IMG/VR virus record: IMGVR_UViG_3300028428_000098
Span: 1-29,249 of that record
Strand: one strand, 5' to 3'
From: a virus
DNA: 29,249 bases
Shown in pieces: positions 925-28,398 of the stretch (positions within the stretch are counted from its first letter, which is position 1; each line of letters opens with the position of its first letter). Below the pieces are notes generated by a model. The model searched no databases, was not told where the DNA came from, and was given only the letters and a program-made list of their open reading frames with translations. Position numbers and translations under genes: made by a program.

Positions 925-1959
925 TCAATAGAGCGCGACGCTCAGGGCCTTCCAAGGCTGATGGATGCCCATGCCCCACCGCTTGCGGTGCTTGACCAGC
1001 GTGGTCTCGTTGTCCTCGTTGAACACGGCCTTCGCCCACTCGCCCTTGCGCATGATGGCGACAGGACCCTCGTCCTCGCTGTCCTTGCACGCGCCGACCA
1101 TGATCGGCCTGCCGGTCGTGATCGAGCCGCCGGAGAAGTCGCCGTTGTACTTCGTCAGGTCGGTCGTTACGTTCGAGTTGGGCAGGTGCTTGGTGAAGAC
1201 GATGTTCCAGCCCATGAAGTTCTCGACCTTGCGGTTGACGATCGGGCTGTCGCCGACGGGGATGAAGTCCTTGCTCGTCACCCGCGTACCGGCAAGCAAG
1301 ATCGTCTTGACCGACGGGTCGGCGAACATATAACGACAGTTTGGGTCGGTCGGCCAGTTCATTCGGTCGGCCTGCTCAGACGCATCAGAGAGGTAGCCGA
1401 TGAGCGTCTCAGCCGAGGTGTTGTTGCGCGGCCAGTTGACCGTGTCGGTCAGGTCAACGGAAGCCACGTCGCGGGTCAACTGGATACCGCCGGAGTGGAC
1501 CCCAGCGATGGCAGGCGCACGCGACGCCAGTACCAGCACCCTGAACCCCACGTAGTCCTCGTACTCGGCGTGCTGCCGGGCGAGGTCTTTGGCGCGGGGC
1601 TTGATCGCATCCCACGGCACATCCTCTTCGTCCTCGACCGCCACGCGGCGGGCAAGGTTGATCGGATCGTCGATCGTCAGGTCCGTGTAGTCCTGAACGT
1701 CGGCCTGGGCCTCGATCAACTGGCCAGGGCCACGGCGCGGGGGCACGCCGTTGTAAGCGAGGCTGGCCCCGCCGAAGAAGGGCATGCGCTTACTGAGCAG
1801 CCCCTTCTCGTTGCTGATCTCGTTGATGATGCCGGAGGCGACCAGAAGGTTCGCGTCGCGGTACTGCTCGGCCATGTAGGTTTCGAGCTGGGTAAAACTC
1901 AGGGCGCGCTCGTTGCCACGGGCAAGCGCTGCGCGCGATAGGACAATGGGATCGGCCAT
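925..1959 (-). CDS. Major capsid protein, T7-like
   Basis: A 344-residue protein, about the length of T7-group major capsid proteins. It would adopt the HK97 fold and form the icosahedral shell around the scaffold. GGGAG lies seven bases before the ATG at 1959. The identification rests mainly on position: portal, scaffold, a small gene, then this gene, the T7 order. It is supported by sequence features seen in this group, such as the early ERALSFTQLETYMAEQYRD segment, the internal DLTIDDPINLARRVAVEDEE segment and a conserved-looking KRWGMGIHQPWKALSV C-terminus. A 224-base non-coding leader precedes it. It is unrelated at first sight to the second capsid-like gene at 19465-20628. Confidence 0.7.
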   Translation of the reverse strand: MADPIVLSRAALARGNERALSFTQLETYMAEQYRDANLLVASGIINEISNEKGLLSKRMPFFGGASLAYNGVPPRRGPGQLIEAQADVQDYTDLTIDDPINLARRVAVEDEEDVPWDAIKPRAKDLARQHAEYEDYVGFRVLVLASRAPAIAGVHSGGIQLTRDVASVDLTDTVNWPRNNTSAETLIGYLSDASEQADRMNWPTDPNCRYMFADPSVKTILLAGTRVTSKDFIPVGDSPIVNRKVENFMGWNIVFTKHLPNSNVTTDLTKYNGDFSGGSITTGRPIMVGACKDSEDEGPVAIMRKGEWAKAVFNEDNETTLVKHRKRWGMGIHQPWKALSVALY

Positions 1960-2630: not shown

Positions 2631-3557
2631 TTACCTCTTTCGTGGTGGGGGAGTCGTTCGCCATTGACGGGGGGAAGCCTCGACGCGCTGGCGCAGGGCG
2701 TCGTCTTTGTACCAGTTGCCTTTGCCGTGGACCTTGTCGGCCTCCCAGATCGCCTCCCACATCAGCGTGGAGTCGCCGAACGGGGTGGCACTGTCGCCAC
2801 CAGCGGCGACGGACTGCTGGACCAGAGGTTTAGCACCGCTGACCTCCTGGTTGTAATCGAACAGCAGGGCCTTGATGGTCGGCAGGGCCTTCTTTGTGTC
2901 GGCCAGCGCGGCGTTGATCTCGGCGTGCTGATCGGGCGGGATTTTGGACGTTGCCCACGTCAAGAGCGTGCCGAGCTGCTGCTCGCCGCCAGCGATCTTG
3001 ATGGCCTCGGCGCGGGTCTGTGCGGCCTGGGCCTTCATCTCCGTCTCGCGGGCGCGGTAGGCGACCAAATCCGCCTGGGCCGTCTGGGCGATGAGTTTCT
3101 TGGGGAAGCCGTACTTCTTGTGGATCGCGTCGATCTGCTCGTCGGTAAGTTTGCCGTCTTTGAGCAGTTGGGCCTTGATCTCCTCTTGCTTGAGGCCAGC
3201 GCCAGTGATGATCCCCGTGAAGTCCTCGGGTTCGGCACCGGGCGGCGGGGGCGCGGCGAGTTTGAGCGTCGCGTCGGCTTCGGGTGCATCAGCACCGGGC
3301 GCTGGCGTCGCTGGCTTGTCGGCCTTGCCACCGCCGATCTTGGCCTGTGCCTCCCTGTAGGACTGGCTGAGGGCTTTGAGAGATTCCTCGGGCGTTGCTC
3401 GGATGAACTTCTTGTCCACATCGGCGTGCCACGCCGGGGGCGTTTCGGGGGCCTTGCCGTCCCCGGTGTCGGGCGGCGGCGACTCCGCGGGGGTCTTGTC
3501 CGCTGGTGTGGTGCCGCTGGCTGGGGGGGCGTCGGTCGCGCTGTTGGTCTCGGGCAT
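2631..3557 (-). CDS. Capsid scaffolding protein, T7 gp9-like
   Basis: A 308-residue, highly charged protein with a Pro/Ala-rich acidic N-terminal third (residues about 1-45 and 75-110) and a helical middle. The segment AGGEQQLGTLLTWATSKIPP (about residues 195-215) resembles the conserved 'GGE..y..L..WA...L' stretch of T7-group capsid assembly proteins. The C-terminus is basic (PPPRKR), as expected for a scaffold that docks on the inner capsid surface. It starts nine bases after the portal stop and precedes the capsid genes, the standard T7 order. It would guide procapsid assembly and then leave. Confidence 0.8.
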   Translation of the reverse strand: MPETNSATDAPPASGTTPADKTPAESPPPDTGDGKAPETPPAWHADVDKKFIRATPEESLKALSQSYREAQAKIGGGKADKPATPAPGADAPEADATLKLAAPPPPGAEPEDFTGIITGAGLKQEEIKAQLLKDGKLTDEQIDAIHKKYGFPKKLIAQTAQADLVAYRARETEMKAQAAQTRAEAIKIAGGEQQLGTLLTWATSKIPPDQHAEINAALADTKKALPTIKALLFDYNQEVSGAKPLVQQSVAAGGDSATPFGDSTLMWEAIWEADKVHGKGNWYKDDALRQRVEASPRQWRTTPPPRKR

Positions 3558-3566: not shown

Positions 3567-5159
3567 TTACTGGGCGAGGGAGTTGTTCTGTGTTGCGGCT
3601 GCCTGCGCCACGTTGCCGGCCACGTCGATGGCCTTGTTGACGGCGGCGCCGCGTGCGGCTTGGGCCTCGTACTCGGCTCGCTCTTGCTCCAGCATCGCCC
3701 GGCTCTTGACCAAGCCCGGCTCGTCGATGTTGGAGGACCGTGCCAGCACGTCCACAAGCACGCCAGTGTCAATCTTGCTCATCGCGGTCTCGCCGAGTTG
3801 GGCGACAGCCGCTGCGAAACTGAGCGTCTCGCGGCCTTTGGACATCTTCGACAGCGACGACACGCCCGTGAGCAGTTCGAGCCGGGTGGCCTTGGGAGTC
3901 AGCGGGGGGGTCAGGCGTTGCTTCTCGGCCAGGAACGCCACGCGGGCGATAATCCCGCCCTGCAAACGCTCGGCGATGGGGCCGTAGAACCCGCCCAGGA
4001 TGCCCTCGACCTCGGCGGCGACCTGCTGCCATGAGACGCTCGACCGCATGGCGTCCCCGGACTGGCTCAGGTTGGCAGTCGTCAGCATGTTCTTGGAGAG
4101 GCGATCACTCACCCGCGCGATGGCCGACTCGACGATCGAGAAGTCGGCAAGGCGGTTGAGTTGCACCGCGGCGAAGTCTTGCACCTGACCACCAACGACC
4201 TTGGCACGGATTCGTGAGCCGGATGGTTTGGCAAGGTCTGTGTCCTTGATTGCGCTGGTGTAGTCTGTGGCCCACAGGAACTTGCTCGCGGCGTCGGCAA
4301 AGTCCAGCACCTTCATCGACAGCACGTCCAGCGAGAGCAGGTCGCCCCGCAGCGCGTCGATAAACGCCCGTCCGTAATGCTCGCCGGTGACTTCCTCGAA
4401 GGGGACGGAGACCATCGGCGTGATGCGCTCGTCGCTCTCGGCCACGGTCCACCCGTTGACCTCGATGGTCTGGACCCACACCTTCGACCACGGCTGCCAC
4501 TCGATGTGCGTGAACTGGTCGATCCGCCGGTCCCGGGCCGACTTCTTCTTGAGAACCTCGGGCTTGAGTTTGGCCGTCTTGAGTTGCTTCTCGGTTAGCG
4601 TCATCGCGTCGATGGACTCTTTGACCGTGTGGGAGATCACATCGAACGACTCGTCCCGCTCGGTTACGTAGCGGTCGCGGCGGTGGACCTTGAGGCGGAA
4701 GTCATCAACGACCTGCACCAGCGTGTCGCCGGTGATGAGCAGGTGGCTGATGGCCGTGCGGACGCGGGAGTTGAACCCGTAGGCCCGGCGGTTGTTCTCG
4801 TCGCTCAGGTTGGCCGACTGGAGCAGCGACAGCAGCAGCACGTCCCGCCAGAACAGGCGGTCGGCCATGTCCTGCTTCATCGTCGGATCGACTTCGGGAT
4901 TGGTCTGAATCTCAGGCGCAAGCGCGGTTGTGAACCACGGCTGGGGGGGGAACATGGCCACCAGGATGCGGCCCTCGATGTTCGACATGCCCATCGCCCC
5001 GTCGCTCTGGTAGTTCTGGGGGAGTTTGGAGTCCTTGTTGTGGCCCTCCGCCGGTAGAACCCAGGGCTTCGTCAGCCGGGCGTTCTCGCGCGCTTCGTTG
5101 AGGCTGGTGGTCCGCGAGTTGTGCGCGGCCGACCAGTGCGCGGCGATGTTGGACTTCAT
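3567..5159 (-). CDS. Portal (head-tail connector) protein, T7 gp8-like
   Basis: A 530-residue protein, matching the length of T7-group connectors. It would form the twelve-subunit ring at one capsid vertex through which DNA is packaged. The N-terminal part has the typical LPAEGHNKDSKLPQNYQSDGAMGMSN region (rough residues 36-60) and the C-terminal half has GILGGFYGPIAERLQGGIIARV and an Ala/Gln-rich tail. The ATG overlaps the stop of the upstream small gene (ATGA), and the scaffold gene follows after nine bases. Identification is from family resemblance plus gene order. Confidence 0.85.
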   Translation of the reverse strand: MKSNIAAHWSAAHNSRTTSLNEARENARLTKPWVLPAEGHNKDSKLPQNYQSDGAMGMSNIEGRILVAMFPPQPWFTTALAPEIQTNPEVDPTMKQDMADRLFWRDVLLLSLLQSANLSDENNRRAYGFNSRVRTAISHLLITGDTLVQVVDDFRLKVHRRDRYVTERDESFDVISHTVKESIDAMTLTEKQLKTAKLKPEVLKKKSARDRRIDQFTHIEWQPWSKVWVQTIEVNGWTVAESDERITPMVSVPFEEVTGEHYGRAFIDALRGDLLSLDVLSMKVLDFADAASKFLWATDYTSAIKDTDLAKPSGSRIRAKVVGGQVQDFAAVQLNRLADFSIVESAIARVSDRLSKNMLTTANLSQSGDAMRSSVSWQQVAAEVEGILGGFYGPIAERLQGGIIARVAFLAEKQRLTPPLTPKATRLELLTGVSSLSKMSKGRETLSFAAAVAQLGETAMSKIDTGVLVDVLARSSNIDEPGLVKSRAMLEQERAEYEAQAARGAAVNKAIDVAGNVAQAAATQNNSLAQ

Positions 5160-6059: not shown

Positions 6060-8624
6060 TTACTGAAAGGCATAAGACTCTTGCTCGATTCCGAGGACGC
6101 GCGTGATGTCCAGCGTCCCGTGCTTTGGCGGCGGCGGAAGAACGACCTCGGGGTACAACGCCGCCCACTCCGCAGCCAGTTCGGCAAGGATGTCGCGCGT
6201 GTAGAGCATGACAAGTTGCTCTAGGACGATCTGCCTGCCGCGCTTGGAGTTGCCCGCGTGGAACCAGAAGTTGTCATGCACCAGCATCATCTCGATGTGC
6301 TCGGCACGGCACGCCACCCCGACCATGTGCGCGTGCGTCGAGTCGAGGCTGTGGATGAAGTTGGCCGCGATCCCGTTGACGTGCTTCTTGACGCGCACCG
6401 GGGCCTTCTCGTCCTCGTAGTCGATGTAGGAGATCTCCTGGAGGACGGTCTTGATTTTCTTGTAGGTGTTCTTGCGGTAGCCCTGGATCACCGGGAACCC
6501 GAGCGGGGTTGTCCAGCGAACCAGATGCCCAGCCGTGGCGATCCGCAGGGCGCACGCCCGCAGCCAGGCCATGATCTTCGCCGCCACGTAACTGACCTTG
6601 GCCAAGCACTTCATCGTGATCTTGGCGAGGTACGCAGACCCGCGTGTTACCTCGTCTTGCGTGAGGCCATGCTCGACAATCTCGTCGCGGATTTGCTGCC
6701 TGGCACCTGACTCGGTTACGCCGTAGGTATCAGCGAGAACCGTGGTTTTGAGCGTCTTGCGCTGGATGCACCGCTCGACGACACGCGCGATCGGGACAAA
6801 CTCCTCGTTGGTCTCAGCCATGACTTCCCGCAGGACCATCTCGGAGATGATCGTGTAGGGGTCGTGGATTACTCCGGTCGGCAGCAGGTTGACCGCAGCA
6901 GCGCCGATGGGGTCGCGCCCGAGCATGGCGTAGTGCTGGAGTCCGTTGCACGCCCCATCCCACTGGCATGGCACAAAGCGCCCGATGCCGTCGGGGTCGG
7001 CCACGCCACGGCACGCCGCGACAAACTGCCAGGGGTTCTCCGCTTGCAGCGCCAGCCCGGACGGCTCGTCGGCCTTGGCGATTCGCTTGATCTCAGGCAG
7101 GTTGCTGTCCACCCAGGCCACGCGCTCGTGGTACAACTGCTTGTCCACGGGCTTGCCGAACATATTGGCCGCGTGAATCTTGAGGTACCGCAGGCCGTCC
7201 GGCCCGGGCCTGATGCCGTTCTTGAACAGCAGCAGCCCGCGCGAGATATCGTCGCCCTGGTGGTTCAGTTGGGCGGGGATGGCGTACTGCCGGAACCGGA
7301 AGTCACCCTGGCAGGGGAACCACATCGGCAGCGCGGCGAACCGCTCGGCCACCGTGATCTTGTCGAGGTAGCACCTGCGGTCGGCTGTGCGGCGCCGGTT
7401 CTCGGTGGCGTTGACCCGCACCTTGGCCTTCCAGTCTTTGAGGTCATCGGGCAGCACCCGCTTCCACCGCTGCCCGCGCGGGGCCGTCTTGCGGTAGCCG
7501 TTGGGCTTCGGCACCGGGGGCAGGTTGTCGGCGTGCGGGACGCCCGCGTGGTTGCCGCCCTGTTTGTAGATCGCCTTCATGTCGTCGAGGGCCTTGGTGT
7601 TCACCGCCAGCGGTGTCGATTGGAGGCACCAGTGGGCAAAGTGCAGTTCGTCCAGGCGACCATCGCGCGTGCGTGCCGCCAGTTCCCGGCGGAGTTCGGG
7701 GCTGGGCTTGGAGACCAGCGGCGTCCTGATGCGGATGTAACCCCCCGGCGTGTCCCGTGTCGCGGGCATCGGCTCAACGACCATCGGCTGGTACTGCGGG
7801 CGCATGAGTTCCCGCGCCGCGTGGCCCTCGGCGACCAGTTCGATCGCCTCGTCGGTCAACTCAACCATCCCGACGCGGTACTTCTTGCCGGGCACCTTGA
7901 TCTTCTGGCGACGGAAGGCGGGCTGGAAGGGCTTGTCGTACCCGTCGGTCGTACACCACTCGATGCACGACCAGAGCAACCGCTCGCCCAGCATGATGCA
8001 CGCGCGCCGGTGGTCGCTCGCGTCCGAGAGGTTGCGGCGTGCCCACCAGTTGATCTTCTTGGGCTGGCTCGCGCGGAACCGCTCGACGATCAGGTTCAAC
8101 AGTTCGTTCTCGTCGGGCATGCGCACCTTCGGGTCTGGCCGCTTGCCGCTGGCGATCTCCTCCTTCATCCGGTTGCGGTACCTGCGCCGGGCGTACTTGT
8201 CGTGGTCCTTCATCTCGGCGAACAGCAGCTCGGCCAGCACCGCGCGGCCGATCGCGTGGGTGAGCCGAGCCACGGTGATCCCGTCGGTGTCGGTCAGGCA
8301 CATGCCGAGGGACTGGTTGAGTGCGATCACCGCCAGCACGTCGGGGTGAATCTCGTTGAGCACCGGCCTGATGACGGTCGAGTTGTGAATCTTTGCGCCC
8401 GCCGCGATCGAGCGTTTGAGTTTGCTGATGTCGGCGGAGACGGCGCGGAACCAGTGCCCGACCAGACGCTCGCCCGGCTTGAGGTTTGCGCCGTTGCCCT
8501 TGTCGGTCTCCTTCTGGGCGAGTTCGCGGTAACGCTTCACGCCGTCCTCGACTGCGCTGCGCTCCAACTCAAACTCGATGTCGATGAGGCTGCCCGCTAT
8601 CAACCGCTCGGTGGCTTGGTGCAT
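6060..8624 (-). CDS. T7-type single-subunit DNA-directed RNA polymerase
   Basis: An 854-residue protein (T7 enzyme: 883) that transcribes phage genes from its own promoters. Motif A is WDGACNGLQHY with catalytic Asp556. Motif B is RKTLKTTVLADTYG, with Arg622, Lys626 and Tyr634 spaced exactly as Arg627, Lys631 and Tyr639 of T7. Motif C is LVHDNF with catalytic Asp784, and FIHSLDSTH (from 756) matches the T7 FVHSQDGSH region. The C-terminal foot is YAFQ instead of FAFA. The specificity-loop region (about 704-735) differs strongly from T7, so a different promoter is expected. It lies downstream of the replication block and upstream of the portal. Confidence 0.96.
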   Translation of the reverse strand: MHQATERLIAGSLIDIEFELERSAVEDGVKRYRELAQKETDKGNGANLKPGERLVGHWFRAVSADISKLKRSIAAGAKIHNSTVIRPVLNEIHPDVLAVIALNQSLGMCLTDTDGITVARLTHAIGRAVLAELLFAEMKDHDKYARRRYRNRMKEEIASGKRPDPKVRMPDENELLNLIVERFRASQPKKINWWARRNLSDASDHRRACIMLGERLLWSCIEWCTTDGYDKPFQPAFRRQKIKVPGKKYRVGMVELTDEAIELVAEGHAARELMRPQYQPMVVEPMPATRDTPGGYIRIRTPLVSKPSPELRRELAARTRDGRLDELHFAHWCLQSTPLAVNTKALDDMKAIYKQGGNHAGVPHADNLPPVPKPNGYRKTAPRGQRWKRVLPDDLKDWKAKVRVNATENRRRTADRRCYLDKITVAERFAALPMWFPCQGDFRFRQYAIPAQLNHQGDDISRGLLLFKNGIRPGPDGLRYLKIHAANMFGKPVDKQLYHERVAWVDSNLPEIKRIAKADEPSGLALQAENPWQFVAACRGVADPDGIGRFVPCQWDGACNGLQHYAMLGRDPIGAAAVNLLPTGVIHDPYTIISEMVLREVMAETNEEFVPIARVVERCIQRKTLKTTVLADTYGVTESGARQQIRDEIVEHGLTQDEVTRGSAYLAKITMKCLAKVSYVAAKIMAWLRACALRIATAGHLVRWTTPLGFPVIQGYRKNTYKKIKTVLQEISYIDYEDEKAPVRVKKHVNGIAANFIHSLDSTHAHMVGVACRAEHIEMMLVHDNFWFHAGNSKRGRQIVLEQLVMLYTRDILAELAAEWAALYPEVVLPPPPKHGTLDITRVLGIEQESYAFQ

Positions 8625-14408: not shown

Positions 14409-14409
14409 G

Positions 14410-15326: not shown

Positions 15327-15351
15327 GGTGATCTCCTTTGAGGGAATGACT

Positions 15352-15373
15352 GGCGCGGGCTTTCACCCGCGCC
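15352..15373 (-). terminator. Perfect 8-bp GC hairpin after the ERF gene
   Basis: GGCGCGGG (15352-15359) and CCCGCGCC (15366-15373) enclose a six-base loop, directly after the ERF stop. There is no T-run on the minus strand, so partial termination or mRNA stabilisation are both possible. Confidence 0.4.
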
Positions 15374-15391
15374 GGGTCAGGCGTCGCGCCA

Positions 15392-16156: not shown

Positions 16157-17063
16157 TGGTTGACTCCATTTCGTAGTGCTTGCAGAACGTGCGGCTATCG
16201 CACAGGTGGCATCCAGTGGTGTTCGGGTTCGTCGGGTGCAGACCGGCACGGTCCATCCGCACCATCTCGCGCAGGTCTTCGATCACCGCGTCGGTGTTGT
16301 TGATGAGAACGTCCCGCACCACCGCGTTGTGTGGGCGGGTGTCCCCCTTCTTGTATTGCACGACCTTCCCCGTTTCGTCCTTGACCGACTGGGCCTTCTT
16401 GAACGGCATCAGATTGCGGACCTGCACCCACTCCACAATCGGGGCGTCGCCGAACTCGACCCACTCCTTCGAGACCAGGGCGCCGAGATCGTCGAACGTC
16501 GGCACCTCCACCCGGCCACGCTCGAAGCACAAGTGATACAGCCCGAGCTGCTTGTTGCGGCGCAGGTAGTCTCGGGTTGGCGAGTCCTCCACCGTCTTCC
16601 AATCCCAGACGTACACGAAGTCGCCGACGTAAAACGCCAGGTCGATGTGGCTGGCGAACTCCGCCGGCACGCCGTCAACGTCGAGCGTCAGGCGGACGGG
16701 CAACTCGCACCCGATCAGCCGGGCCGACGCGAAGTAGTCGGCAAACCGGACCTGATACGCCTCGATCCACTCGCAGACCTCGGCGAGCAACTCAGGCTCG
16801 GCCTCGATGACGGCGTGAGACTTGGGCCTGCCCTCGTCTAGCACGCGGGCCGAGACGATCTTGCCCGCCTTGGTGGCGATCGACCGGATCGAGTCGCGGT
16901 CCCACAGGTTCATGGTGTGGACCATCGTCGCGGCCTCGTGGAAGACCAGACCCAGGTACAAAGCCGTCGTCGTCTGCCCGATGATCTTCCCCTCGTGCCG
17001 CAGTTGCACCGCCCGACGGCAGGGGTTGATGAGATCACTGGTGTGGTACTCAGAGAGCGGCAC
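16146..17063 (-). CDS. Cas4/RecB-like PD-(D/E)XK nuclease with Fe-S cluster motif
   Basis: A 305-residue protein starting at GTG 17063 with AGGAG upstream. Nuclease residues are His43 (FHEA), Asp141 (HIDLAF), Asp154 and Lys156 (WDWKT) and Gln172 (KQLGLY), the usual order in RecB-family nucleases. Cys15 plus Cys285, Cys288 and Cys294 follow the C...C-x2-C-x5-C arrangement that holds a 4Fe-4S cluster in Cas4 and AddB. It would resect DNA ends. No CRISPR array or other cas gene is present, so the role is phage recombination with the ERF protein. Confidence 0.85.
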   Translation of the reverse strand: MPLSEYHTSDLINPCRRAVQLRHEGKIIGQTTTALYLGLVFHEAATMVHTMNLWDRDSIRSIATKAGKIVSARVLDEGRPKSHAVIEAEPELLAEVCEWIEAYQVRFADYFASARLIGCELPVRLTLDVDGVPAEFASHIDLAFYVGDFVYVWDWKTVEDSPTRDYLRRNKQLGLYHLCFERGRVEVPTFDDLGALVSKEWVEFGDAPIVEWVQVRNLMPFKKAQSVKDETGKVVQYKKGDTRPHNAVVRDVLINNTDAVIEDLREMVRMDRAGLHPTNPNTTGCHLCDSRTFCKHYEMESTNAQ

Positions 17064-17141
17064 TGTTATCTCCTAAAACGCGCGCCGGGCCTACACAGCC
17101 AGGCGTGCGCGTCGTCGTGGTTCCCTCACCTATTGACCGAC

Positions 17142-17169
17142 GGCCTGGCCCTGCGTGCAGGGCTTGGCC
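17142..17169 (-). terminator. Intercistronic hairpin
   Basis: GCCCTGC (17148-17154) and GCAGGGC (17157-17163) pair across two bases, extended by outer GGCC/GGCC. It lies just downstream of the gene ending at 17175. It lacks a T-run on the minus strand. Confidence 0.35.
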
Positions 17170-17174
17170 GGGGA

Positions 17175-17780
17175 TCAGCGGATAGCCAGCGTCGTCTCTG
17201 TTACGTCAGACCAGCCGCAGTTACTGCACGCCCGCCCCTGCACCCGGTAGCGGTGGATACCCAGCGGGATGGAGTCGTCGCCTTCGGTATCGACGTGGTC
17301 AACCGGATCAACCACAGACGCACAGACCGGGCATGCCTCTCCGCTCTTGGGGCAGCCAGCAGCGGCCCAAGACACAATCGCCTGCTCGATGAAGGCCAAC
17401 TCCTCTGCACCCGTAAGGATGGGCTTCTCCCTCTTGTGCCCAGACCTCATGCAGTACTCAGCCAGGTCGATGATGCTGGCGGATTGGGTGATGATCTTGA
17501 TGCAGCCAGCGTGCAGTTTGATCTGACGCTGGCGGACCATGAGCGGCATATCGCCGGCGCAAATGAAGATGGCCTTCTGTGCGAACGACGTGGCCGCAAG
17601 CAACAACCGTGGCCGGGCCGACGGCATGGTGAACAGCGGGTCGTACTCGACGTTCACCGGGACTGGCTGGGGCTGGTCGTTTTCGGGAAGGCCACCCAAC
17701 TCCTGCTCGATGCGGGGCTGCGTGGGCGGAAGAACGGACAGGTTATGGGGCGGGTCAATCGGTGCGGGTGTATCTGCCAC
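17175..17780 (-). CDS. Unknown protein with C-terminal zinc-binding motif
   Basis: A 201-residue protein if the GTG at 17780 is used: AGGAG lies six bases before it, while the ATG at 17786 abuts the AGGAG. The N-terminus (about 50 residues) is Pro-rich and likely disordered. The middle is helical, and the C-terminal part has CPVC and CSNC pairs (about residues 148-151 and 184-187) that could bind one zinc. It is an early gene of the leftward lytic operon, before the nuclease. No family recognised. Confidence 0.6.
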   Translation of the reverse strand: MADTPAPIDPPHNLSVLPPTQPRIEQELGGLPENDQPQPVPVNVEYDPLFTMPSARPRLLLAATSFAQKAIFICAGDMPLMVRQRQIKLHAGCIKIITQSASIIDLAEYCMRSGHKREKPILTGAEELAFIEQAIVSWAAAGCPKSGEACPVCASVVDPVDHVDTEGDDSIPLGIHRYRVQGRACSNCGWSDVTETTLAIR

Positions 17781-17812
17781 GGGCATCTCCTGTGTGGGGT
17801 GAGGGTCGGGGG

Positions 17813-18067
17813 TCAGTTCTTGACGCTTGATTGCGGGCGGCTTTTGCGTGCCACGGGCTTGCGGTACTTGGTGGCCGTCCCGTCGCCGGTGCTCTGGAGC
17901 AACTCACCGATCGCTGCCGGCTCCATCTCGGTGAGGTGCGAAACAGCCGCGTCGATCAGTCGGGTGTGAGACACGCCGTAGACCAGCCGAAGCCGGGCGA
18001 GGCCGACGTGCGCCTCCTTGCTGATCTGGATGCAGGTGCGGGCGATGGACTTGAGACTCTTTGCCAT
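17813..18067 (-). CDS. Small DNA-binding protein candidate, first gene of the lytic operon
   Basis: An 84-residue protein starting MAKSLKSIARTCIQISKEAH at ATG 18067; an in-frame TTG at 18073 is less likely. The region ISKEAHVGLARLRLVYGVSHTRLIDAAVSHLTEM has the strand-helix-helix pattern of ribbon-helix-helix proteins ('is...h..L..l....g.s...li..Av..l'), and the C-terminus is basic. Divergent from the repressor across a shared operator region, it holds the position of a Cro-type early regulator. Function is inferred. Confidence 0.55.
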   Translation of the reverse strand: MAKSLKSIARTCIQISKEAHVGLARLRLVYGVSHTRLIDAAVSHLTEMEPAAIGELLQSTGDGTATKYRKPVARKSRPQSSVKN

Positions 18068-18206
18068 GTCCAAAGCCTACCCGTACAGTCCTATAGAAAT
18101 CAAGTAGACTTGTATAGATTTTTATACAAATCTACGGAAGCACTGAAAATACAGATAAAATGTGATAAATGTTTGGATTTGACGTGAGTGTGGATAAACT
18201 GTTTGC
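18068..18206. promoter_or_regulatory. Divergent control region of the lysogeny switch
   Basis: This 139-base gap between the divergent repressor and first lytic gene is clearly more AT-rich than the rest of the window. It contains the inverted repeat described separately and several TATA-like stretches (CTATAG, TGTATAG, TTTATAC, GATAAA), so promoters for both directions are expected here. I could not choose single -35/-10 pairs with confidence. Confidence 0.65.
18104..18135. promoter_or_regulatory. Operator-like inverted repeat
   Basis: GTAGACTTGTATA (18104-18116) and TATACAAATCTAC (18123-18135) are complementary at 12 of 13 positions, with a six-base spacer. It lies about 70 bases before the repressor start and about 37 bases before the divergent gene. 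It is the best candidate for the repressor binding site. Confidence 0.65.
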
Positions 18207-18869
18207 ATGGCTACCGCAGCAGAAGTCGTTCGCCGGTTGAGGGAGGAGCGCGGTCTCACCCAGGCCGAACTTGCAGAGCGATTCAAGAAGACTCCGCAGT
18301 GGATATTCAGCGTTGAAACCAGCCGCATCAAACTCAGAGAACCCCTCCGCGCCAAGTTTGCCAACGCCTTCGGGATCACGCTGGCCGACTTCGACCGCAT
18401 GTGGCAGCACTCCACCATGCCCCTGCAAACAGCCGAGAACAAGGGCATCCCGATCATCAACAAGACCCCGGCGGGTGAGGCCCTGAACTACCAGGAGTAC
18501 GGCGTCAGCAGCAGGCACGGGCACGCCTACTTACCCCGCGATGAGGACACCCGCAGCGAGGAACTCTTTGCTGTCCAGGTGGTCGGGGATTCGATGCTTC
18601 CTCGAATCCGAGAGGGGGATCACGCGATCCTCTGGCCGATCCCCGAGGGCTACCCCGAGGAGCAGCTCGACGGGCGTGTGGTGTTCGTTCACTTCCAGGC
18701 CGACGACACCTGCCAGATAGCCCGTCTGCACTGGATGGATGACACCGACAAGGAACTGGGCCGGCGGGTGGAACTTCGCAAGGACAACCCCAAATTCAAG
18801 GGGCGGAAGGTCTGGTTCAGCGAACTCGACCAGCTCGCCGTCGTCGTGCAGATCAGGGGCAAGCCATGA
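18207..18869 (+). CDS. Phage repressor: XRE helix-turn-helix plus S24 (LexA/CI-like) domain
   Basis: A 220-residue protein that would hold the phage in lysogeny. Residues about 4-58 form an XRE-type helix-turn-helix (VVRRLREERGLTQAELAERF). The S24 domain keeps a putative cleavage bond Ala89-Gly90 (TPAGEAL) and the nucleophile Ser129 in VVGDSM. Aligned to LexA 'EVTVKRL', the strand reads TCQIARL, so the catalytic lysine position seems to be Ala172. Self-cleavage may therefore be absent or altered. It is transcribed divergently from the lytic operon and is coupled by ATGA to a lipoprotein gene. Confidence 0.85.
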   Translation: MATAAEVVRRLREERGLTQAELAERFKKTPQWIFSVETSRIKLREPLRAKFANAFGITLADFDRMWQHSTMPLQTAENKGIPIINKTPAGEALNYQEYGVSSRHGHAYLPRDEDTRSEELFAVQVVGDSMLPRIREGDHAILWPIPEGYPEEQLDGRVVFVHFQADDTCQIARLHWMDDTDKELGRRVELRKDNPKFKGRKVWFSELDQLAVVVQIRGKP

Positions 18870-19183
18870 GGCCGGCGCTCTTGGTTGTGCTGGTCGTTCT
18901 GGGCGGGTGCGGGCCGTCGCGCGTGGCAGTCGTGCCCGACCCACCTGCCGGGCCTGCGATCAGCCCCGAGCGCCAGCAGGCCGTCTACGCCGCGGCTGCC
19001 AAGGTCGTGGTGTTGACGCCGGAAGATTCGCTCGAAGACTGGCGTGCGATCCAGACCACGGCGGCAATACCCGGCGAGGGTGTTAGGTATCTCAGGCTCT
19101 GGGCGTTCGGGCTTGGTGCGGAGGCGGTGCTGGTCGAGCGGGTGGATGGCGAACTCGTCGGCACAGCCATGCGTCGCCCGTGA
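18866..19183 (+). CDS. Lipoprotein co-transcribed with the repressor
   Basis: A 105-residue protein whose ATG overlaps the repressor stop. The first 15 residues (MRPALLVVLVVLGGC) form a short signal with lipobox LGGC, lipidation at Cys15. The mature part has a Pro-rich linker then a small, mostly helical and beta domain. Coupled to the repressor, it should be made in the lysogen, so a superinfection-exclusion or host-surface role is plausible. No family recognised; function inferred from position only. Confidence 0.7.
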   Translation: MRPALLVVLVVLGGCGPSRVAVVPDPPAGPAISPERQQAVYAAAAKVVVLTPEDSLEDWRAIQTTAAIPGEGVRYLRLWAFGLGAEAVLVERVDGELVGTAMRRP

Positions 19184-19318
19184 TTGGGGCAGATTTTGGG
19201 GGAACTCCAACGGCGTTCCAGCAGAGTCCGTGCGGACTACCAGTGGCGACGGTCAGGGGTTGTGTTGTCAGGCAAAGGTCAGGCACCAGCAGTTGAGCGG
19301 ACGCGCCGTGTCGGGCGT

Positions 19319-19365
19319 AAGACGGATTTGCAATCCGCCCCATTAGACCACTCTGGCACGCGGCC
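19319..19365 (-). tRNA. tRNA-Cys 5' half (not a functional gene), probable att core
   Basis: On the minus strand the sequence starts with GGCCGCG (acceptor 5' strand), then a D-arm (CCAG...ATGG) and a complete anticodon arm GCGGA-TTGCAAA-TCCGT with anticodon GCA (Cys). After TCCGTCTT no T-arm and no CGCGGCC acceptor partner are found. The match ends just after the anticodon arm, as expected for identity with a host tRNA gene used for integration. Confidence 0.7.
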
Positions 19366-19397
19366 GACGCCGAAATATAGCCCTGGCACAACAGAAA

Positions 19398-19434
19398 CGC
19401 GGGGTCCGACGGTTAGGATCCGACGAACCCCGCG
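19398..19434 (-). terminator. Terminator of the orphan capsid gene
   Basis: CGCGGGG (19398-19404) pairs with CCCCGCG (19428-19434), plus a T-A pair. The loop is 21 bases and contains an inner TCCGA repeat. Read leftward, the hairpin is followed by GTTTCTGTT. It lies 30 bases after the stop of the gene ending at 19465. Confidence 0.5.
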
Positions 19435-19464
19435 CGTTTGGGGCAAAGTTGGGGCAAAAGACCA

Positions 19465-20628
19465 TCAGGTCAGGCCGCGTATCACGCCGTGCGCCGCCTC
19501 ATTGCGGACCTCCAGCGTGTACTCGCCAACTACCAGACCGTTGTGCTGGCCGTTGATACAAGGCAGATTCTTGTAAGCAAAACTTCTACCTAACAGCGGA
19601 AGCACCGATAGGCGAGTGCTGTCCAGGAGCAGCACCGCATCCATCGGTACCCACCGGCTCAGCACAATCTTGCACGGACCGAAGTCGCTCTCGTACACAT
19701 TGATCGCGTCTCGGTATCGAGTGCCGCTCATGTCCACGTCGGCTAGTGATGATCTAAAGGCGTTGATCCTTCGCTTCATCGTGCCGCCCACCACGATCGT
19801 GTTGACAAGCACACTTCTTCCATCCCAGATTTGTTTTGCCGCGGCGTTGAGCATGGCCTCGCTCAGTTCTGTGCCGCCACCATCCCCCCTGGGAATACCC
19901 CCGGCACCAGGAGTCATCACGTTCGTGGTCAACTGCGGGATGATCCCGCTCATCGCATGGCGAAGCACCGTCCCGAGGTACTGCGTCGAGGCCGACACCC
20001 CGTTGATGACGCAGCTTTCAAGATCACGGAGTAACTGACGCAGGCGAGTATGCTTCTGATAGTCCATCTCGTCGCTGATTGATATACCGCGATCCTTCGC
20101 CAACTGCTCCGAAGCACTCACGTTTGCAGAGAAGACCTGCGCGTAATTGCTCTTCGCCACTCGGTTGATGAACCGAGACTGCGATTCACCGGCGCACCCC
20201 TCTATAGATGGGTTGCCGATAATCAGCAGCCGCTGCCCACTGCTCAACGCAGAACCCTTCGACGCACCGTATCGGCGGGACACCCTGACGACGCCGTCGG
20301 TGATGTCCAGGACCAGCATCACTTCACTTGAACCATTGGGTCGCAGCAAGTCTCCAACTCGCAGGCGCGACGGCTTGATTGTCGTAAGCACCGTCGCGTC
20401 TGTCGCGTTCGGGGTGAACGTCGTCTGCTTGATCGTGTCGAAGTTCGGTAGCAGGTCATCGTCAAACCAACTGTGCAGGCCACTCATCGCCACCCGACCA
20501 GGATCACCAAGGTGGTCCAGCAGCGGGGCCTCGCTGGGTGAGATGATCCCCACCAACGTGGCAAGGTCTTCGGCGTTCTCGATCTGGTTTTCGGGTATGT
20601 CCATCAAGCATTTTCCAGTAAACGGCAT
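19465..20628 (-). CDS. Orphan SU10-type (DUF5309-like) major capsid protein
   Basis: A 387-residue protein starting MPFTGKCLMDIPENQIENAEDL, eight bases after AAGGAG. It follows the SU10 major capsid pattern: 'MxFTGK', DLATLVGIISPSEAPLLDHLGDPGR, HSWFDDDLLPN, a middle with LRQLLRDLESCVINGVSAS, later YRDAINVYESDFGPCKIVLSRW, and an EYTLEVRNEAAHGVIRGL end. These are HK97-fold shell proteins. It stands alone between attP and integrase, far from the head block, which has its own T7-like capsid gene. It has its own candidate promoter and terminator, and its codons use more A/T at third positions than neighbours, suggesting recent transfer. Role unknown. Confidence 0.75.
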   Translation of the reverse strand: MPFTGKCLMDIPENQIENAEDLATLVGIISPSEAPLLDHLGDPGRVAMSGLHSWFDDDLLPNFDTIKQTTFTPNATDATVLTTIKPSRLRVGDLLRPNGSSEVMLVLDITDGVVRVSRRYGASKGSALSSGQRLLIIGNPSIEGCAGESQSRFINRVAKSNYAQVFSANVSASEQLAKDRGISISDEMDYQKHTRLRQLLRDLESCVINGVSASTQYLGTVLRHAMSGIIPQLTTNVMTPGAGGIPRGDGGGTELSEAMLNAAAKQIWDGRSVLVNTIVVGGTMKRRINAFRSSLADVDMSGTRYRDAINVYESDFGPCKIVLSRWVPMDAVLLLDSTRLSVLPLLGRSFAYKNLPCINGQHNGLVVGEYTLEVRNEAAHGVIRGLT

Positions 20629-20654
20629 GTGCATTTCTCCTTTGTTATGTCAAG

Positions 20655-20684
20655 TGCATAGTTCTGATACGAAGACACGATCAA
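20655..20684 (-). promoter_or_regulatory. Possible promoter for the orphan capsid gene
   Basis: On the minus strand TTGATC (-35 like, 20684-20679) and TATGCA (-10 like, 20660-20655) are 18 bases apart, just before the AAGGAG of the capsid-like gene. The -35 overlaps the integrase stop codon. Weak match, but the location fits an independent transcription unit. Confidence 0.35.
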
Positions 20685-21832
20685 CTAAGAGCCGCATCGG
20701 TCGCCGGCTCACCCCTCAGCGCCCGCAGTTGGGCCTCCAGCCTGCGAATCTGTGCGCCCTTGTCCACCCCGGCGATCGACTCAATCTGTTCGGGTGTGGG
20801 CCGGACGTAGTGGTTCTGCATCACCTCGGGCGAGTGGCCCAGCCAGTACGCCACGGTGGGCACGGGGAACGCCTGCACCCAGTCCGTCTCCAGGCTCTTG
20901 CGTAGGGTGTGTAGGGGCTTGCCATAGGTCGCCACCCCTGCCCGCTTGCGGATGGCCTGCGCCACCCGGCTGGCCTCTTGCGGGGTGGTCGGTGCCCCAT
21001 CGCACGGGCCGGCAGCGCACGCACCCGACTCGAACACCTCCAGCAGCACCGCCCGCAACTCGGGGCTGATGGGCACCTCGCGCTGGTCGTGCTTGGTGTC
21101 GGCCTCCGCTGCCCGGCCACCCCGATCGGGGATGCGGACGATCAGTTGGGCCGGGTGGTCGAAGCGGATGTCCTGCCAGGTCAATGCCCGGGCCTCGTTG
21201 AACCGCAGCCCGGCCATGCGTGCGAGCGCGAAGATGGCCCGCCAGCCAGGCCCCGGCGCGGCGTCCATGATCTTCCGCACGTCGGCGATGGGGACGTAGG
21301 CCCAGGTGCCCATGATCTTGGGCACGCTGGACCGCTCGCCCTTGAACGGGTTGATCCGCACGCCGGTGTCGCGCGGGTGCCGCATGGCGTGGGCGAAGAG
21401 GGTCTTGGCGTTGCGCATGTGCTTTCGCACCGTCGCCACGCTGATCGGCCTGCCCTTGATCTGTCGCTTCTCCAGCCACAGGCGGAAGTCGGCGGCGTGT
21501 GCCGGGGTGATGTCGGCCACCTTCCGCCCTTCGCCCAGGTGGTTGGTCAGCAGGTCGATGGTGCTGCGGAGTTCCCGCGCCGACGCCGGGGCCAGGTCGG
21601 TGCGGAGTGTGAAGAACCTCGCCACCCACGCGGCGAGTGTCATGTCGCCGGTCGCTTCCAGCAGGCTCGGGTCCGCCGTGAGTTCCGCGGCGAGTTCCCG
21701 CCGTCGGCGTTCGGCCTCACGCCTTGGCACGTCGGCGATCGCGCCGGCGGATCGGCTGACCCGCTTGCCCTGGTGGGTGTAGACCAGTTTCCAGTAGTCG
21801 CCGTTGCGTTCGATGCGTACGTCGATGGTCAT
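20681..21832 (-). CDS. int: Tyrosine recombinase integrase
   Basis: A 383-residue protein that would insert the phage at a host tRNA-Cys gene. Residues about 1-50 form an arm-type DNA-binding region, about 62-155 the core-binding domain, and the rest the catalytic domain. Catalytic residues are all visible: Arg210 (MAGLRFNEAR), Lys247 (TKHDQREVPI), His308 and Arg311 (HTLRKS), His333 (YWLGHS) and Tyr342 (NHYVRP). The ATG overlaps the stop of the upstream small gene (ATGA). The C-terminus ends in a short coiled-coil-like tail. The orphan capsid gene lies between it and attP, an unusual separation. Confidence 0.95.
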   Translation of the reverse strand: MTIDVRIERNGDYWKLVYTHQGKRVSRSAGAIADVPRREAERRRRELAAELTADPSLLEATGDMTLAAWVARFFTLRTDLAPASARELRSTIDLLTNHLGEGRKVADITPAHAADFRLWLEKRQIKGRPISVATVRKHMRNAKTLFAHAMRHPRDTGVRINPFKGERSSVPKIMGTWAYVPIADVRKIMDAAPGPGWRAIFALARMAGLRFNEARALTWQDIRFDHPAQLIVRIPDRGGRAAEADTKHDQREVPISPELRAVLLEVFESGACAAGPCDGAPTTPQEASRVAQAIRKRAGVATYGKPLHTLRKSLETDWVQAFPVPTVAYWLGHSPEVMQNHYVRPTPEQIESIAGVDKGAQIRRLEAQLRALRGEPATDAALS

Positions 21833-22029
21833 GGCGCACCACCCCCGCCGGCCCCGGTAGCCAGTGCCGCGTCGTTCGTGCGTGCCTTGATCGCCTCCTC
21901 CAGCGCGACGCGGATGGAGTCGGAGCGCAGCCACTTCCCCCCCCGCTCGGCTTTGAGCAACGCGGCGAGTTGGTCGGCGAGCGCGGGGATGTTGTCCTCG
22001 GCTCGGGTGTTGATGTATTGCCAGGTCAT
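21829..22029 (-). CDS. Small protein coupled to integrase
   Basis: A 66-residue protein starting MTWQYINTRAEDNIPALADQ at ATG 22029, chosen because GGAG lies six bases upstream; a start at 22062 lacks this. The part LAALLKAERGGKWLRSDSIRVALEEAIKAR is helix-rich and could be a small DNA-binding fold. The tail is Gly/Ala-rich. ATGA coupling to the integrase makes it a candidate directionality factor, but no family is recognised. Confidence 0.5.
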   Translation of the reverse strand: MTWQYINTRAEDNIPALADQLAALLKAERGGKWLRSDSIRVALEEAIKARTNDAALATGAGGGGAP

Positions 22030-22086
22030 GTGTTCTCCAGTGAGGGAAGCCGGCGCGGCCACGGTGGTGGGCGCGCGGGTGGTTGG

Positions 22087-22449
22087 TCAGTCGTCGTCGG
22101 GCGGGAGTGGTCGTGGGTTCCCAAGTTCGGCGTCGCGTAACTGGGTCGCCGTCTCATACTCGGGCGTGCCCACCTCGATGCGCCGGAAGGTGTAACTGAT
22201 GCAGTCGTCTATCACGATGACCTTCCAGATAGCCATTCGCTCGGGGTTGTCGGCGAACCAATACAACTTCGATCCGCTGTGATGGTTTATGTAGAACAGT
22301 TGACCGTTGGCAAAGCCGGCGATCTTCTCCGATGCGATCCACCCATCCAAGTTCTTGTGCATCGTCCGCATGACACGGAGGACGTTCTCGTGGATAGCAC
22401 GCACGTGCAAACTCTCGTCGGCGTGTATCTGGAGTGGAGTGAACTTCAC
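22087..22449 (-). CDS. Unknown protein
   Basis: A 120-residue protein from GTG 22449, which overlaps the stop of the upstream gene (GTGA). Starts MKFTPLQIHADESLHVRAIH, helical first half, then a beta-rich part (GQLFYINHHSGSKLYWFADN, WKVIVIDDCISYTFRRIEV) and an acidic end (PPDDD). No family recognised. Part of the early accessory operon before integrase. Confidence 0.55.
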   Translation of the reverse strand: MKFTPLQIHADESLHVRAIHENVLRVMRTMHKNLDGWIASEKIAGFANGQLFYINHHSGSKLYWFADNPERMAIWKVIVIDDCISYTFRRIEVGTPEYETATQLRDAELGNPRPLPPDDD

Positions 22450-22820
22450 GATGCACCCCCGCTCTTGAGTGTGTTCATCGCCACCCACGCCGCCCGGCAC
22501 TGCTCGATCGTGAAGTGCCCGAAGTGCGTCTCGTGTGGCGGGATGCCCATTGCCTTGGATAGCCACGCATACGCGCGGAGTCTGCGGTTCCGCTTCCCGC
22601 CCGGCGTGCCCAGGAACGGACTGCCCGTGCCGTTCAACCAGAGCGGGTCAAACCGTGCATGGCACATCTTGCGGGCCTTGCGGGTGAGCGCGTCGGCTGG
22701 TGTGGCGGTGTCGCCGGACCAGCACGCAACGTCGCAGCCAGGGTGCGGGCATTGCCAACGCTTGCCCCATCGGGTGTCGGCGCTGACCATCTGCCGTTTG
22801 TGGGTCGGGCAAACCTTCAC
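22446..22820 (-). CDS. DUF3268-like zinc-finger protein
   Basis: A 124-residue protein from GTG 22820 (GTGA overlap, GGTGGGGAG upstream). An N-terminal zinc-finger-like part has CPTH and CPHPGCDVAC. The rest follows the DUF3268 pattern: RKARKMCHARFDPLW, then RLRAYAWLSKAMGI and HFGHFTIEQCRAAW. These proteins are common in phages and mobile elements. Nucleic-acid binding is suspected but not shown. Confidence 0.7.
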   Translation of the reverse strand: MKVCPTHKRQMVSADTRWGKRWQCPHPGCDVACWSGDTATPADALTRKARKMCHARFDPLWLNGTGSPFLGTPGGKRNRRLRAYAWLSKAMGIPPHETHFGHFTIEQCRAAWVAMNTLKSGGAS

Positions 22821-23149
22821 TCCCCACCCCCTTTCGCGCCGGTGGCCTTGGCGATGGCGGCGAGGGCTAGGCGGTGATTGAATTCGTTCTGCGCCCTTAG
22901 TTCTGGCCCTTCCGCATCGACGAATGTCCTGTCGCGGATAGCCTCCAGCGCGGCCAGCAGGTCGGGCGCGGCATAGATCAGGCGGTAGTTTGCCTCCGCT
23001 TCGGGCGTATCTGAGTCTCCATTCGAGTCCATGATCGGCCAGATTTGACGGCCCTCGTGGTCGATGATGGTGTCGCGTAGGGAGCGTGCGAACCCACGCT
23101 TTGTATCCTCAATCGGCCTAGCCCATGATGTTTGCGTGTGCTGGTTCAA
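22817..23149 (-). CDS. Unknown protein, TTG start
   Basis: A 110-residue protein. The TTG at 23149 overlaps the upstream stop (TTGA), which supports it as the start. The segment NYRLIYAAPDLLAALEAIRD is common in small phage proteins of unknown role. The C-terminus is Ala/Gly-rich. No function assigned. Confidence 0.5.
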   Translation of the reverse strand: MNQHTQTSWARPIEDTKRGFARSLRDTIIDHEGRQIWPIMDSNGDSDTPEAEANYRLIYAAPDLLAALEAIRDRTFVDAEGPELRAQNEFNHRLALAAIAKATGAKGGGE

Positions 23150-23781: not shown

Positions 23782-23807
23782 GGTGGTCTCCTAAACCGCT
23801 GTGCCTT

Positions 23808-23833
23808 GGCCCCGGGATGACAGTCCCGGGGCC
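23808..23833. terminator. Perfect 10-bp hairpin
   Basis: GGCCCCGGGA (23808-23817) and TCCCGGGGCC (23824-23833) pair around a six-base loop. On the plus strand TTCTTGTT follows, but genes run on the minus strand, where no T-run follows. It may act as a processing or stability hairpin between transcripts. Confidence 0.45.
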
Positions 23834-23863
23834 TTCTTGTTCCCGCCCGACACTCGGGAGGGT

Positions 23864-23900
23864 GAAGCCCGCGCCAGCCCTTTGGGGTGGGCGCGGGTGG
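23864..23900. repeat. Intergenic hairpin repeat, copy 1
   Basis: This 37-base element matches 24430-24466 at 33 of 37 positions. CCCGCGCC (23868-23875) pairs with GGCGCGGG (23890-23897). Both copies lie a few bases beyond the stop of a leftward gene. Confidence 0.6.
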
Positions 23901-23906
23901 GGTGGG

Positions 23907-26362: not shown

Positions 26363-26653
26363 TCAAGTTCCGGTTCCAAAACCCTTGGGCTTGTCTGGTT
26401 TGCACCACCCCCGGTGAGCGATGAGCGTCGCCGCCGTGGCAGGCACCGCATACGCCCCAATCGCCATCCACCACGGCGTGTCCCTCAGGACGGCGTTGGC
26501 TCCTGTCAGGACGAACACCACCCGCAGGACCGAGACGAGGGCGGTGGAGGCGGCTGAGTGCCAGTAGGACGCTCCTACGGCTGTCCGCATCTTGTAGAGC
26601 CATGCCAGTGCTTCGGTAACGCCAAGGAGGGCGAGGATGAGGATTGTGGCCAT
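26363..26653 (-). CDS. Small membrane protein downstream of terminase
   Basis: A 96-residue protein starting MATILILALLGVTEALAWLY; its ATG overlaps the terminase stop (TGATG). Three hydrophobic segments are visible (about residues 2-20, 34-52 and 62-80), with a polar, Lys-rich C-terminus. The pattern resembles the DUF5698-like family of small membrane proteins. It could be a second holin candidate or a membrane moron. No start-proximal signal cleavage site. Confidence 0.55.
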   Translation of the reverse strand: MATILILALLGVTEALAWLYKMRTAVGASYWHSAASTALVSVLRVVFVLTGANAVLRDTPWWMAIGAYAVPATAATLIAHRGWCKPDKPKGFGTGT

Positions 26654-28398
26654 CAGCGGTTCCTGTAGGTGATCCAGTTGGCGGGCCTGGGTGGGGTGTC
26701 GCTGTTGAGTTCGGCCTCGTCTTCTTCGATTTGCTGTCGGACCTGTGCGGCGTGGATGGACTGGTTGGTCGTGAGGTTGCCGGCGAGGACTTTGAGCAGG
26801 TTGGCGAAGGCGTCGATCTCGTCGTCTTGGCCTAGGCAGTTGCGCTCGAAGGTCAGGCGTGTGGTCTGGCGTTGCCATTCCTGGTTCTGGGCGACGCGGG
26901 GGTGGATGCAGACGCGGTGTGCGGTGAAGAGGGGGTCGCAGGTGGTGATGATGCGGGTTTCTTTCTGGCCCGAGGACCAGAGCGTCTCGACGGCGCAGTG
27001 CCAGGAGTCTGTGCCTTTGCCGTCGCGGGAGCGGGTCAGGGGTGCGGTGCGTGCGAGTGCGGCGATATCGCTGGTGAAGAGGTCGGCGAGGAACTGCCCG
27101 CCGCCGTTGGCCTCGACGACGAGTTGGCGGATGTCGTATTCGATGCATTTACGGAGGATCGCCATGCGGTTTTCGGTGCTGGCGCCGCCTTCGAGACCGC
27201 CGACCTCGAAGATGTAGAGTTGCGACCCCATGGAGCCGCCGGCGGCGAAGCCGAGTTTGTCCCGCCCGCCGGCGGAGGGGTCGATGACCATGGCCTTGAT
27301 GTGGTAAGGCTGGACCACGGAGGCATCGACGTACATGGGTGCGTAGAAACCGTCCTCGCCGAAGCCCAGGGAGGGAATGGGCAGGCGTGTGGAGTCTCCG
27401 CCGCGGAGTTTGCCGTAGGTAACGTCAAGGGGAGCGGATCGGTGGTCGCAGTCGTAGACGATCAGGTCTGCTAGGCGGAGGGGGTAGGTGTGGGCGGTGC
27501 CCACGTCGATGTAGAGCATGAACTCGCGCTCGAACTCCAGCCTGCCGACGGACTCTTTCTCGGCGACGGCGGACTGGGGGACGCGGTGGGCGAAGGAGAC
27601 CTGCCCGGGTCGGACGCGGCCGGAGGCCAGGCGTTCGGCCATGAGCGGGGAGAGGCCCAGGGTGCGCCGCCCCGGCTCGGGGTAGGCCATGGGGTAGGTG
27701 CGGAAGCGGTACCCCTGCTTCTCTTGCTTGACGTAGAGGGTGTCGTCGCACTTGATGGTGCCGAACTCGACGATTTCCAGAGGGTCGATCTGGGGCTGCT
27801 CGCCGACGATCTCGGTGTAGATGATGTTGCTGAACTCGCTGGTGAAGTGGTGCAGGCGCTCGCGGGCCTCGTGGGTCTGGGTGTTGCCCTTGGTCTCGAT
27901 GTCGTCGGGGAGGATGGAGTGGGCGCGGTTGCCTTCGAGCTGACCGTCGATGCCCAGGCTTTTGACGCTGGGCTGCTTGTCGCCGTCATGCCCGACAACG
28001 TTGAAGGCAGTGGCGGAGTCCTTCATCTCGCCGTGTGGTCTGAGGTGCTGGAGGAACCAGACCTTGCCGATCCAGTCGCGGTTCATCTCCAGCATCGACG
28101 CTGCCGACCCCCCGGACTTGCTGACAAAGAGGATTTTGCGGTTGGGGTCTCGGAGCAATCGGTAGCAGGAGAGGGGGACACTGAGCATCGTGGTCTTGCC
28201 GGCACCACGCCACTGGAGAACGCCCCGCTTCATGGGCACGTTGGAGCCGTGTCCGACGGCCCAGAGCCACGCCTCGATGTCCAGGTCGCCCAGGGGGTGT
28301 ACGCGGTCCTTGCCCAGTTCGCTCCAGAGGTTCTGGAGGAAGAAAACGGGGTCATCGCGGAGTTTCCGCGTGTAGGCGACGCCGTCGTATTTGCTCAT
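26653..28398 (-). CDS. terL: Large terminase subunit, T7 gp19-like
   Basis: A 581-residue protein, the length of T7-type large terminases. The N-terminal ATPase has Walker A-like LQWRGAGKTTM with Lys68 and Walker B ILPDDIE (about 162-168). The C-terminal nuclease has AMVIDPSAGGRDK with Asp373, VVEANGGGQ with Glu429 and GQDDEIDAF with Asp525/526 and Asp529. It would pump phage DNA into the head through the portal and cut it. It follows the probable small subunit by 11 bases. Confidence 0.92.
   Translation of the reverse strand: MSKYDGVAYTRKLRDDPVFFLQNLWSELGKDRVHPLGDLDIEAWLWAVGHGSNVPMKRGVLQWRGAGKTTMLSVPLSCYRLLRDPNRKILFVSKSGGSAASMLEMNRDWIGKVWFLQHLRPHGEMKDSATAFNVVGHDGDKQPSVKSLGIDGQLEGNRAHSILPDDIETKGNTQTHEARERLHHFTSEFSNIIYTEIVGEQPQIDPLEIVEFGTIKCDDTLYVKQEKQGYRFRTYPMAYPEPGRRTLGLSPLMAERLASGRVRPGQVSFAHRVPQSAVAEKESVGRLEFEREFMLYIDVGTAHTYPLRLADLIVYDCDHRSAPLDVTYGKLRGGDSTRLPIPSLGFGEDGFYAPMYVDASVVQPYHIKAMVIDPSAGGRDKLGFAAGGSMGSQLYIFEVGGLEGGASTENRMAILRKCIEYDIRQLVVEANGGGQFLADLFTSDIAALARTAPLTRSRDGKGTDSWHCAVETLWSSGQKETRIITTCDPLFTAHRVCIHPRVAQNQEWQRQTTRLTFERNCLGQDDEIDAFANLLKVLAGNLTTNQSIHAAQVRQQIEEDEAELNSDTPPRPANWITYRNR

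Follow-up and report, generated by a model that had tools for sequence, protein, structure and literature searches.

The window, meaning the whole stretch of 29,249 nucleotides analysed here, is a linear IMG/VR record (IMGVR_UViG_3300028428_000098) with an intact SU10-type major capsid gene at 19465..20628 on the minus strand. The gene starts with an ATG at position 20628, with GGAG 8 nt upstream, and codes for 387 aa at full length with neither stop nor frameshift. The start with this ribosome-binding site (RBS) is the one given in a preliminary description of the same DNA. The open reading frame matches the Pfam profile SU10_MCP (PF17236) over its full length (E 2.4e-57, residues 20-389, 195 bits against a cut-off of 24.1) and also the major head protein phrog_1328 (2.9e-44). 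An AlphaFold model built with 19 relatives (pLDDT 73.5, pTM 0.63) adopts the HK97 fold, and its top Foldseek matches are the VP1, Pa223 and SU10 capsids (E 1e-21 to 1e-13, the best being VP1 at 1e-21). Comparison of the model with the HK97 capsid (VIA) gives a Z of 18.6, and comparison with encapsulins a Z of ~18. Profile and fold thus confirm the earlier assignment of this gene as a full-length SU10-type capsid gene far from the head block. The GC content at third codon positions (GC3) of the orphan gene is 0.71, below the 0.86-0.90 of most core phage genes. The A/T-rich third positions noticed before are real relative to the core, but values as low (0.70-0.77) also occur in several accessory genes.

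The orphan gene is flanked by the integration functions of the phage. A tyrosine integrase gene (20681..21934, minus strand; PF00589 1.9e-11, phrog_1 6e-42) lies upstream on the same strand, its stop separated from the capsid gene by 52 nt. On the other side, the segment at 19322..19366 (minus strand) corresponds to the 5' part of a tRNA-Cys(gca), comprising acceptor strand, D arm and anticodon arm, and matches the tRNA-Cys gene of one Phycisphaerales genome (G136) at 45/45 bp. Of 101 Phycisphaerales genomes, 19 contain a 38-bp pattern of this attP with 0-3 mismatches. This tRNA-Cys match makes a Phycisphaerales bacterium the very probable host of the phage, with the capsid gene lying at one end of the prophage. 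The gene is intact, outside the lytic modules and between integrase and attP, with no portal, scaffold or protease gene adjoining it; the position of a moron without head genes at its side, as first described, holds on both counts. The claim that the gene has its own promoter and terminator fared less evenly. A terminator-like hairpin does follow the gene (19400..19432, minus strand; -21.4 kcal/mol), weak at a z of -2.0, but a promoter scan of the same strand found no promoter-like site belonging to the gene, and the gap to the integrase is the said 52 nt. Upstream of the phage genes no shared promoter motif for the phage RNA polymerase is evident. Across attP, at 18207..18869 on the plus strand, lies a CI/LexA-like repressor gene (HTH and Peptidase_S24). 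A small lipoprotein-like ORF (MRPALLVVLVVLGGCGPS...; 18866-19183, plus strand) overlaps the end of the repressor gene beside attP at the other prophage end, and is a possible second lysogeny gene.

The phage has a head module of its own at 925-5159, as the preliminary description had recognized. On the minus strand it contains a T7-like major capsid gene (925..1959; phrog_267 major head protein, 2e-11; 100% in L002-L004), a head assembly/scaffold gene (2631..3557; phrog_1052 4e-11) and a portal gene for a T7-type head-tail connector (3567..5159; PF12236 9e-24, phrog_449 1e-66). The same strand also encodes a T7-like RNA polymerase (6060..8624; PF00940 2.8e-93) and a T7-like terminase large subunit (TerL) at 26653..28398 (PF22530 6e-22, phrog_38 4e-57). 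A second record, L003 (IMGVR_UViG_3300005527_000306), carries the phage's own capsid protein at 100% identity, bridges the window ends and continues into tail genes. From its overlap with both window ends and its tail region we derive a phage genome of ~43.4 kb. The bridge between position 1 and positions 29110-29249 is seen with L003, L005 and L006; the tail module is not part of the window. With its own RNA polymerase, TerL, portal and capsid, and with tail-region genes in L003, this genome does not have the incomplete phage gene set of a cf-PICI. Positions 13194-24125 are spanned by the window alone, with no second contig there. A near-identical contig from another sample (L002 1-584) diverges abruptly at window position ~9580, which suggests an accessory region that varies from one population of the phage to another.

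Close relatives of the orphan capsid or of the integrase were not found in IMG/VR, where the RNA polymerase and TerL matched only ~100% copies from the same phage. Among the matches listed from GenBank phages and IMG/VR, SU10-type capsids are only ~20-35% identical to the orphan protein. The same gene, which was to be sought in other phages according to the preliminary description, did not turn up among the IMG/VR matches listed, and nor did a second phage with a captured copy. Bacterial genomes, by contrast, contain full-length relatives at 37-55% identity, and up to 62% in a wider sample, all of them in Planctomycetota. In the order Phycisphaerales, 132 of 251 genomes carry a relative, nearly always as a single copy; class-wide the count is 131 of 298. 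The chromosomal proteins of the host order are mostly 45-62% identical to the orphan protein, and the distance from the orphan copy to each chromosomal copy found is 38% or more. Two genomes, G124 (L155-L158) and G113 (L160), carry extra SU10-type capsids at ~27% besides the single conserved copy; these probably belong to ordinary prophages.

A tree built from 56 proteins places the phage gene as sister to the chromosomal copy of genome G349 (100/94, starred) and within starred sets of four and six rows (100/99 each) whose remaining members are all chromosomal, whereas every SU10-type capsid of phages falls outside the chromosomal clade. The end branch of the phage copy (0.70) is eight times longer than that of the G349 copy (0.087), and the GC3 of the latter (0.87) exceeds the 0.71 of the orphan gene. 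G136, the genome with the tRNA-Cys match to attP, belongs to the same six-row clade. This nesting, together with the attP match in the same clade, indicates that the phage captured the gene from its host lineage and kept it. By its position in the tree, then, the orphan gene is a copy taken from the chromosomal clade of the phage's own host lineage.

The ten closest chromosomal copies (10/10) adjoin the portal gene of a cluster that reads, in order, portal (SPP1_portal, 2.6e-14), a weak scaffold match, capsid, and the small genes F6, F13, F19, F4 and F8. The cluster is seen on L113, L104, L194 and L192. A search of the genes at this locus for tail and lysis functions gave a weak likeness of F6 to podovirus portal-tail adaptors, including that of SU10 (Z ~7), and no match for the others. 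The flanks are metabolic and housekeeping genes (phosphoglucomutase, pyridine-nucleotide oxidoreductase, amidohydrolases, DapB, aldehyde dehydrogenase, peptidase M16) common to related genomes, and 488 kb of sequence around 31 loci contained nothing related to the phage integrase. Terminase_6N and Terminase_3 profiles gave nothing above cut-off in 12 genomes, and one sub-threshold match led, in G252, to a diverged TerL (Terminase_6C above cut-off; phrog terL 1e-14) at L189 9634-11700, which is 24 kb away from the capsid gene. Further TerL loci are on L204 and L216. TerL homologues lie ~40, ~48 and ~53 kb from the capsid gene in G210, G273 and G015, respectively, and within the cluster in L112 and L124; none was found in ~100 kb around the locus of G063. 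Between its ATPase and nuclease domains, the terminase of G252 contains a long insertion rich in arginine and serine, and a homing-endonuclease-like gene comes next (L189 11976-12692). A second syntenic arrangement occurs in other Planctomycetota (L112, L114-L122, L125, L126, L129), with a weak portal match, a weak scaffold match, capsid, and then genes of 220, 436, 375 and 1060-1430 aa without Pfam matches.

Portal and capsid are thus clustered, TerL lies nearby in G252, G015, G210 and G273, and the locus persists at about one copy per genome with shared flanks in 132/251 and 131/298 genomes. From this gene content and pattern of inheritance alone, we read the Phycisphaerales cluster as a candidate gene transfer agent (GTA). 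It is apparently undescribed in Planctomycetota: the literature searched contained no GTA from this phylum, and no phage-borne orphan copy of a host GTA capsid.

The chromosomal capsid gene is itself a target of insertion. In at least four genomes (G184, G411, G345 and G376) it is split at codons 58-59 by elements of ~11 kb, and about twelve genomes of the 251-genome set show the same split. Such elements are located at L151 1251-12821, L193 1593-12705, L195, L197, L111 3-848 and, at codon ~326, L154; G222 carries a related element at codon ~326. The G184 element encodes a large serine recombinase, an AAA_25 ATPase, a protease-capsid fusion (Phage_capsid_4 3e-40; phrog_4523 5e-75), a sigma-like protein and a DNA methylase. 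Recombinase and capsid were found again in the elements of G411, G345 and G376, each with an ATPase match. These elements could be satellites of the host particle or regulated switches for it. The insertion site reads CACGAGTGGNTNGAGGAC and the phage copy reads CACAGTTGGTTTGACGATGAC, so that the site is missing from the phage copy, which may be a coincidence. Integration of the phage itself into the chromosomal capsid gene was considered and rejected, since its attP corresponds to tRNA-Cys.

Close pairs of chromosomal copies have dN/dS values of 0.05-0.2. On the phage branch, three-way distances give a dN/dS of ~0.33 (dN 0.24, dS 0.73), and the chromosomal branch of L097 gives 0.28. The phage copy differs at 24 of the 114 alignment columns in which 15 chromosomal copies are invariant, compared with 0-10 for those copies. 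The departures are concentrated in the N-terminal half (19/58 against 5/56; Fisher p 0.002), where they cluster in the N-arm, the base of the E-loop and the P-domain strands. In HK97-fold capsids, these are the parts that touch neighbouring subunits.

The fold, the origin in the chromosomal clade, the intact frame with its RBS, the overall constraint, the faster change of the N-terminal half and the match between attP and host are computed results. At a probability of about 0.5, we interpret the gene as an intact copy of the capsid gene of the host's candidate GTA, captured by a temperate T7-like phage and carried as lysogeny cargo that acts on the host particle. The T7-like phage would have taken the capsid gene from the virus-derived chromosomal locus of its own host lineage and carried it between integrase and attP. 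The prophage would then make the captured protein in the lysogen, where it may co-assemble with the host's own capsid subunits and either poison host particles or change their dimensions. Poisoning would spare the lysogen lysis for the sake of a particle without phage genes; reprogramming would make the host particle serve the prophage. Both outcomes fit. Because the locus from which the gene stems belongs to the lineage of the phage's host, the host's own particle is the obvious partner, and it is also the natural one in that the orphan protein is about as close to the host capsids as these are to each other between lineages. An action of the captured protein on the host particle has, in our estimate, roughly even odds. 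That the protein serves in lysogeny as a counterfeit GTA capsid, shutting down or commandeering the host GTA, we propose tentatively, at somewhat less than even odds. With the ~11 kb capsid-bearing elements inserted into the same chromosomal gene, this would amount to an arms race around the domesticated capsid.

The gene may instead be a passenger, acquired from the host chromosome through illegitimate recombination in the course of inexact excision or packaging and left beside the attachment site with no function as yet. Regions adjacent to attachment sites are known to gather host genes, the gene has no promoter of its own, and its long branch and lost invariant residues would suit a passenger. 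The reading frame, however, has stayed at full length with its RBS and free of stops and frameshifts after divergence to 62% identity, the neighbours from the host cluster were not carried along, and the phage-branch dN/dS, a value for a single branch only, is near that of one chromosomal branch (~0.33 and 0.28). We consider this explanation unlikely. An assembly chimera, in which a host capsid gene was joined to a phage contig, is the explanation to which we give the least credence. It draws on the coverage of 13194-24125 by one contig only, and is opposed by the divergence of at least 38% from all chromosomal copies found, by the tight spacing between integrase and attP with an RBS in place, and by the arrangement in the host genomes, in which the capsid gene follows scaffold and portal genes and not an integrase.

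Other functions have also been considered. The preliminary description had proposed a captured gene that acts on capsid assembly during lysogeny, and capture and cargo position agree with the data; the targets and forms that it named are not favoured. One of these was superinfection exclusion by poisoning the capsids of competing SU10-type phages. The moron position and the SU10-type HK97-fold protein would suit such a role, but the capsids of SU10-type phages among the matches listed are only 20-35% identical to the orphan protein, as against mostly 45-62% for those of the host order, which makes the host particle the likelier assembly partner. With a portal-scaffold-capsid(-terminase) locus of the host lineage as the source of the gene, exclusion of such phages appears very improbable. 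The other named form, an encapsulin-like shell made in lysogeny, finds some footing in the shared fold (Z ~18). No cargo enzyme or fusion was found among the neighbours in the window or among the host-cluster genes examined, and the relatives of the orphan gene belong to a portal/scaffold/terminase set, with which we know of no encapsulin. We dropped this reading for want of cargo and leave it only a slim chance. A capsid-fold protein encoded by a phage might also be an accessory part of the phage's own virion. This is hardly probable: the orphan protein and the phage's own capsid belong to different families, the orphan gene lies far from the head block with a GC3 lower than that of the head genes, and T7-like heads generally need one capsid protein.

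Action on the host particle, the reading that we prefer, can be compared with several known systems. The host locus described here resembles the GTAs of Rhodobacter capsulatus (RcGTA) and Caulobacter (CcGTA): it is virus-derived, single-copy and under purifying selection, occurs in about half of the genomes of its order, and codes for TerL, portal and capsid, some of its genes being scattered. The host locus differs from them in its SU10/podovirus-type capsid and its phylum, Planctomycetota, and is known from genes alone, among which none for tail, lysis or regulation was recognized. In alphaproteobacteria, the release of GTA particles kills the producing cell (PMC10883770, PMC13236601). Phage satellites that redirect or substitute capsids, such as SaPI/PICI (PMC12409344), PLE (PMC10945586) and cf-PICI, are mobile elements that disturb the capsid assembly of another element, as we propose here. 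In contrast to these satellites, the element considered here is a complete temperate phage, its proposed target is the domesticated particle of the host, and the interfering part would be a capsid homologue instead of a size-determination or scaffold protein. In roseophages, the GTA-like genes are reportedly genes of the phage's structural module. The nearest precedent in the literature searched is provided by the roseophages RDJLphi1 (PMC3070671) and DSS3phi8 (PMC4961962), which, as in the present case, have genes homologous to those of a GTA. The orphan gene described here differs in being an additional copy away from the head block, in a phage with another capsid type, and in being nested in a chromosomal clade. 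Encapsulins (PMC8346489) have the HK97 fold in common with the orphan protein, which differs in being without cargo and in having relatives that sit with portal, scaffold and terminase.

If the proposed reading is true, a phage carries a counterfeit of its host's domesticated particle, and conflict between phages and GTAs becomes directly testable. The chromosomal locus would constitute an apparently undescribed candidate GTA in roughly half of the sampled Phycisphaerales genomes, and the capsid-bearing elements within the same gene would make this locus a natural experiment on the control of a domesticated capsid.
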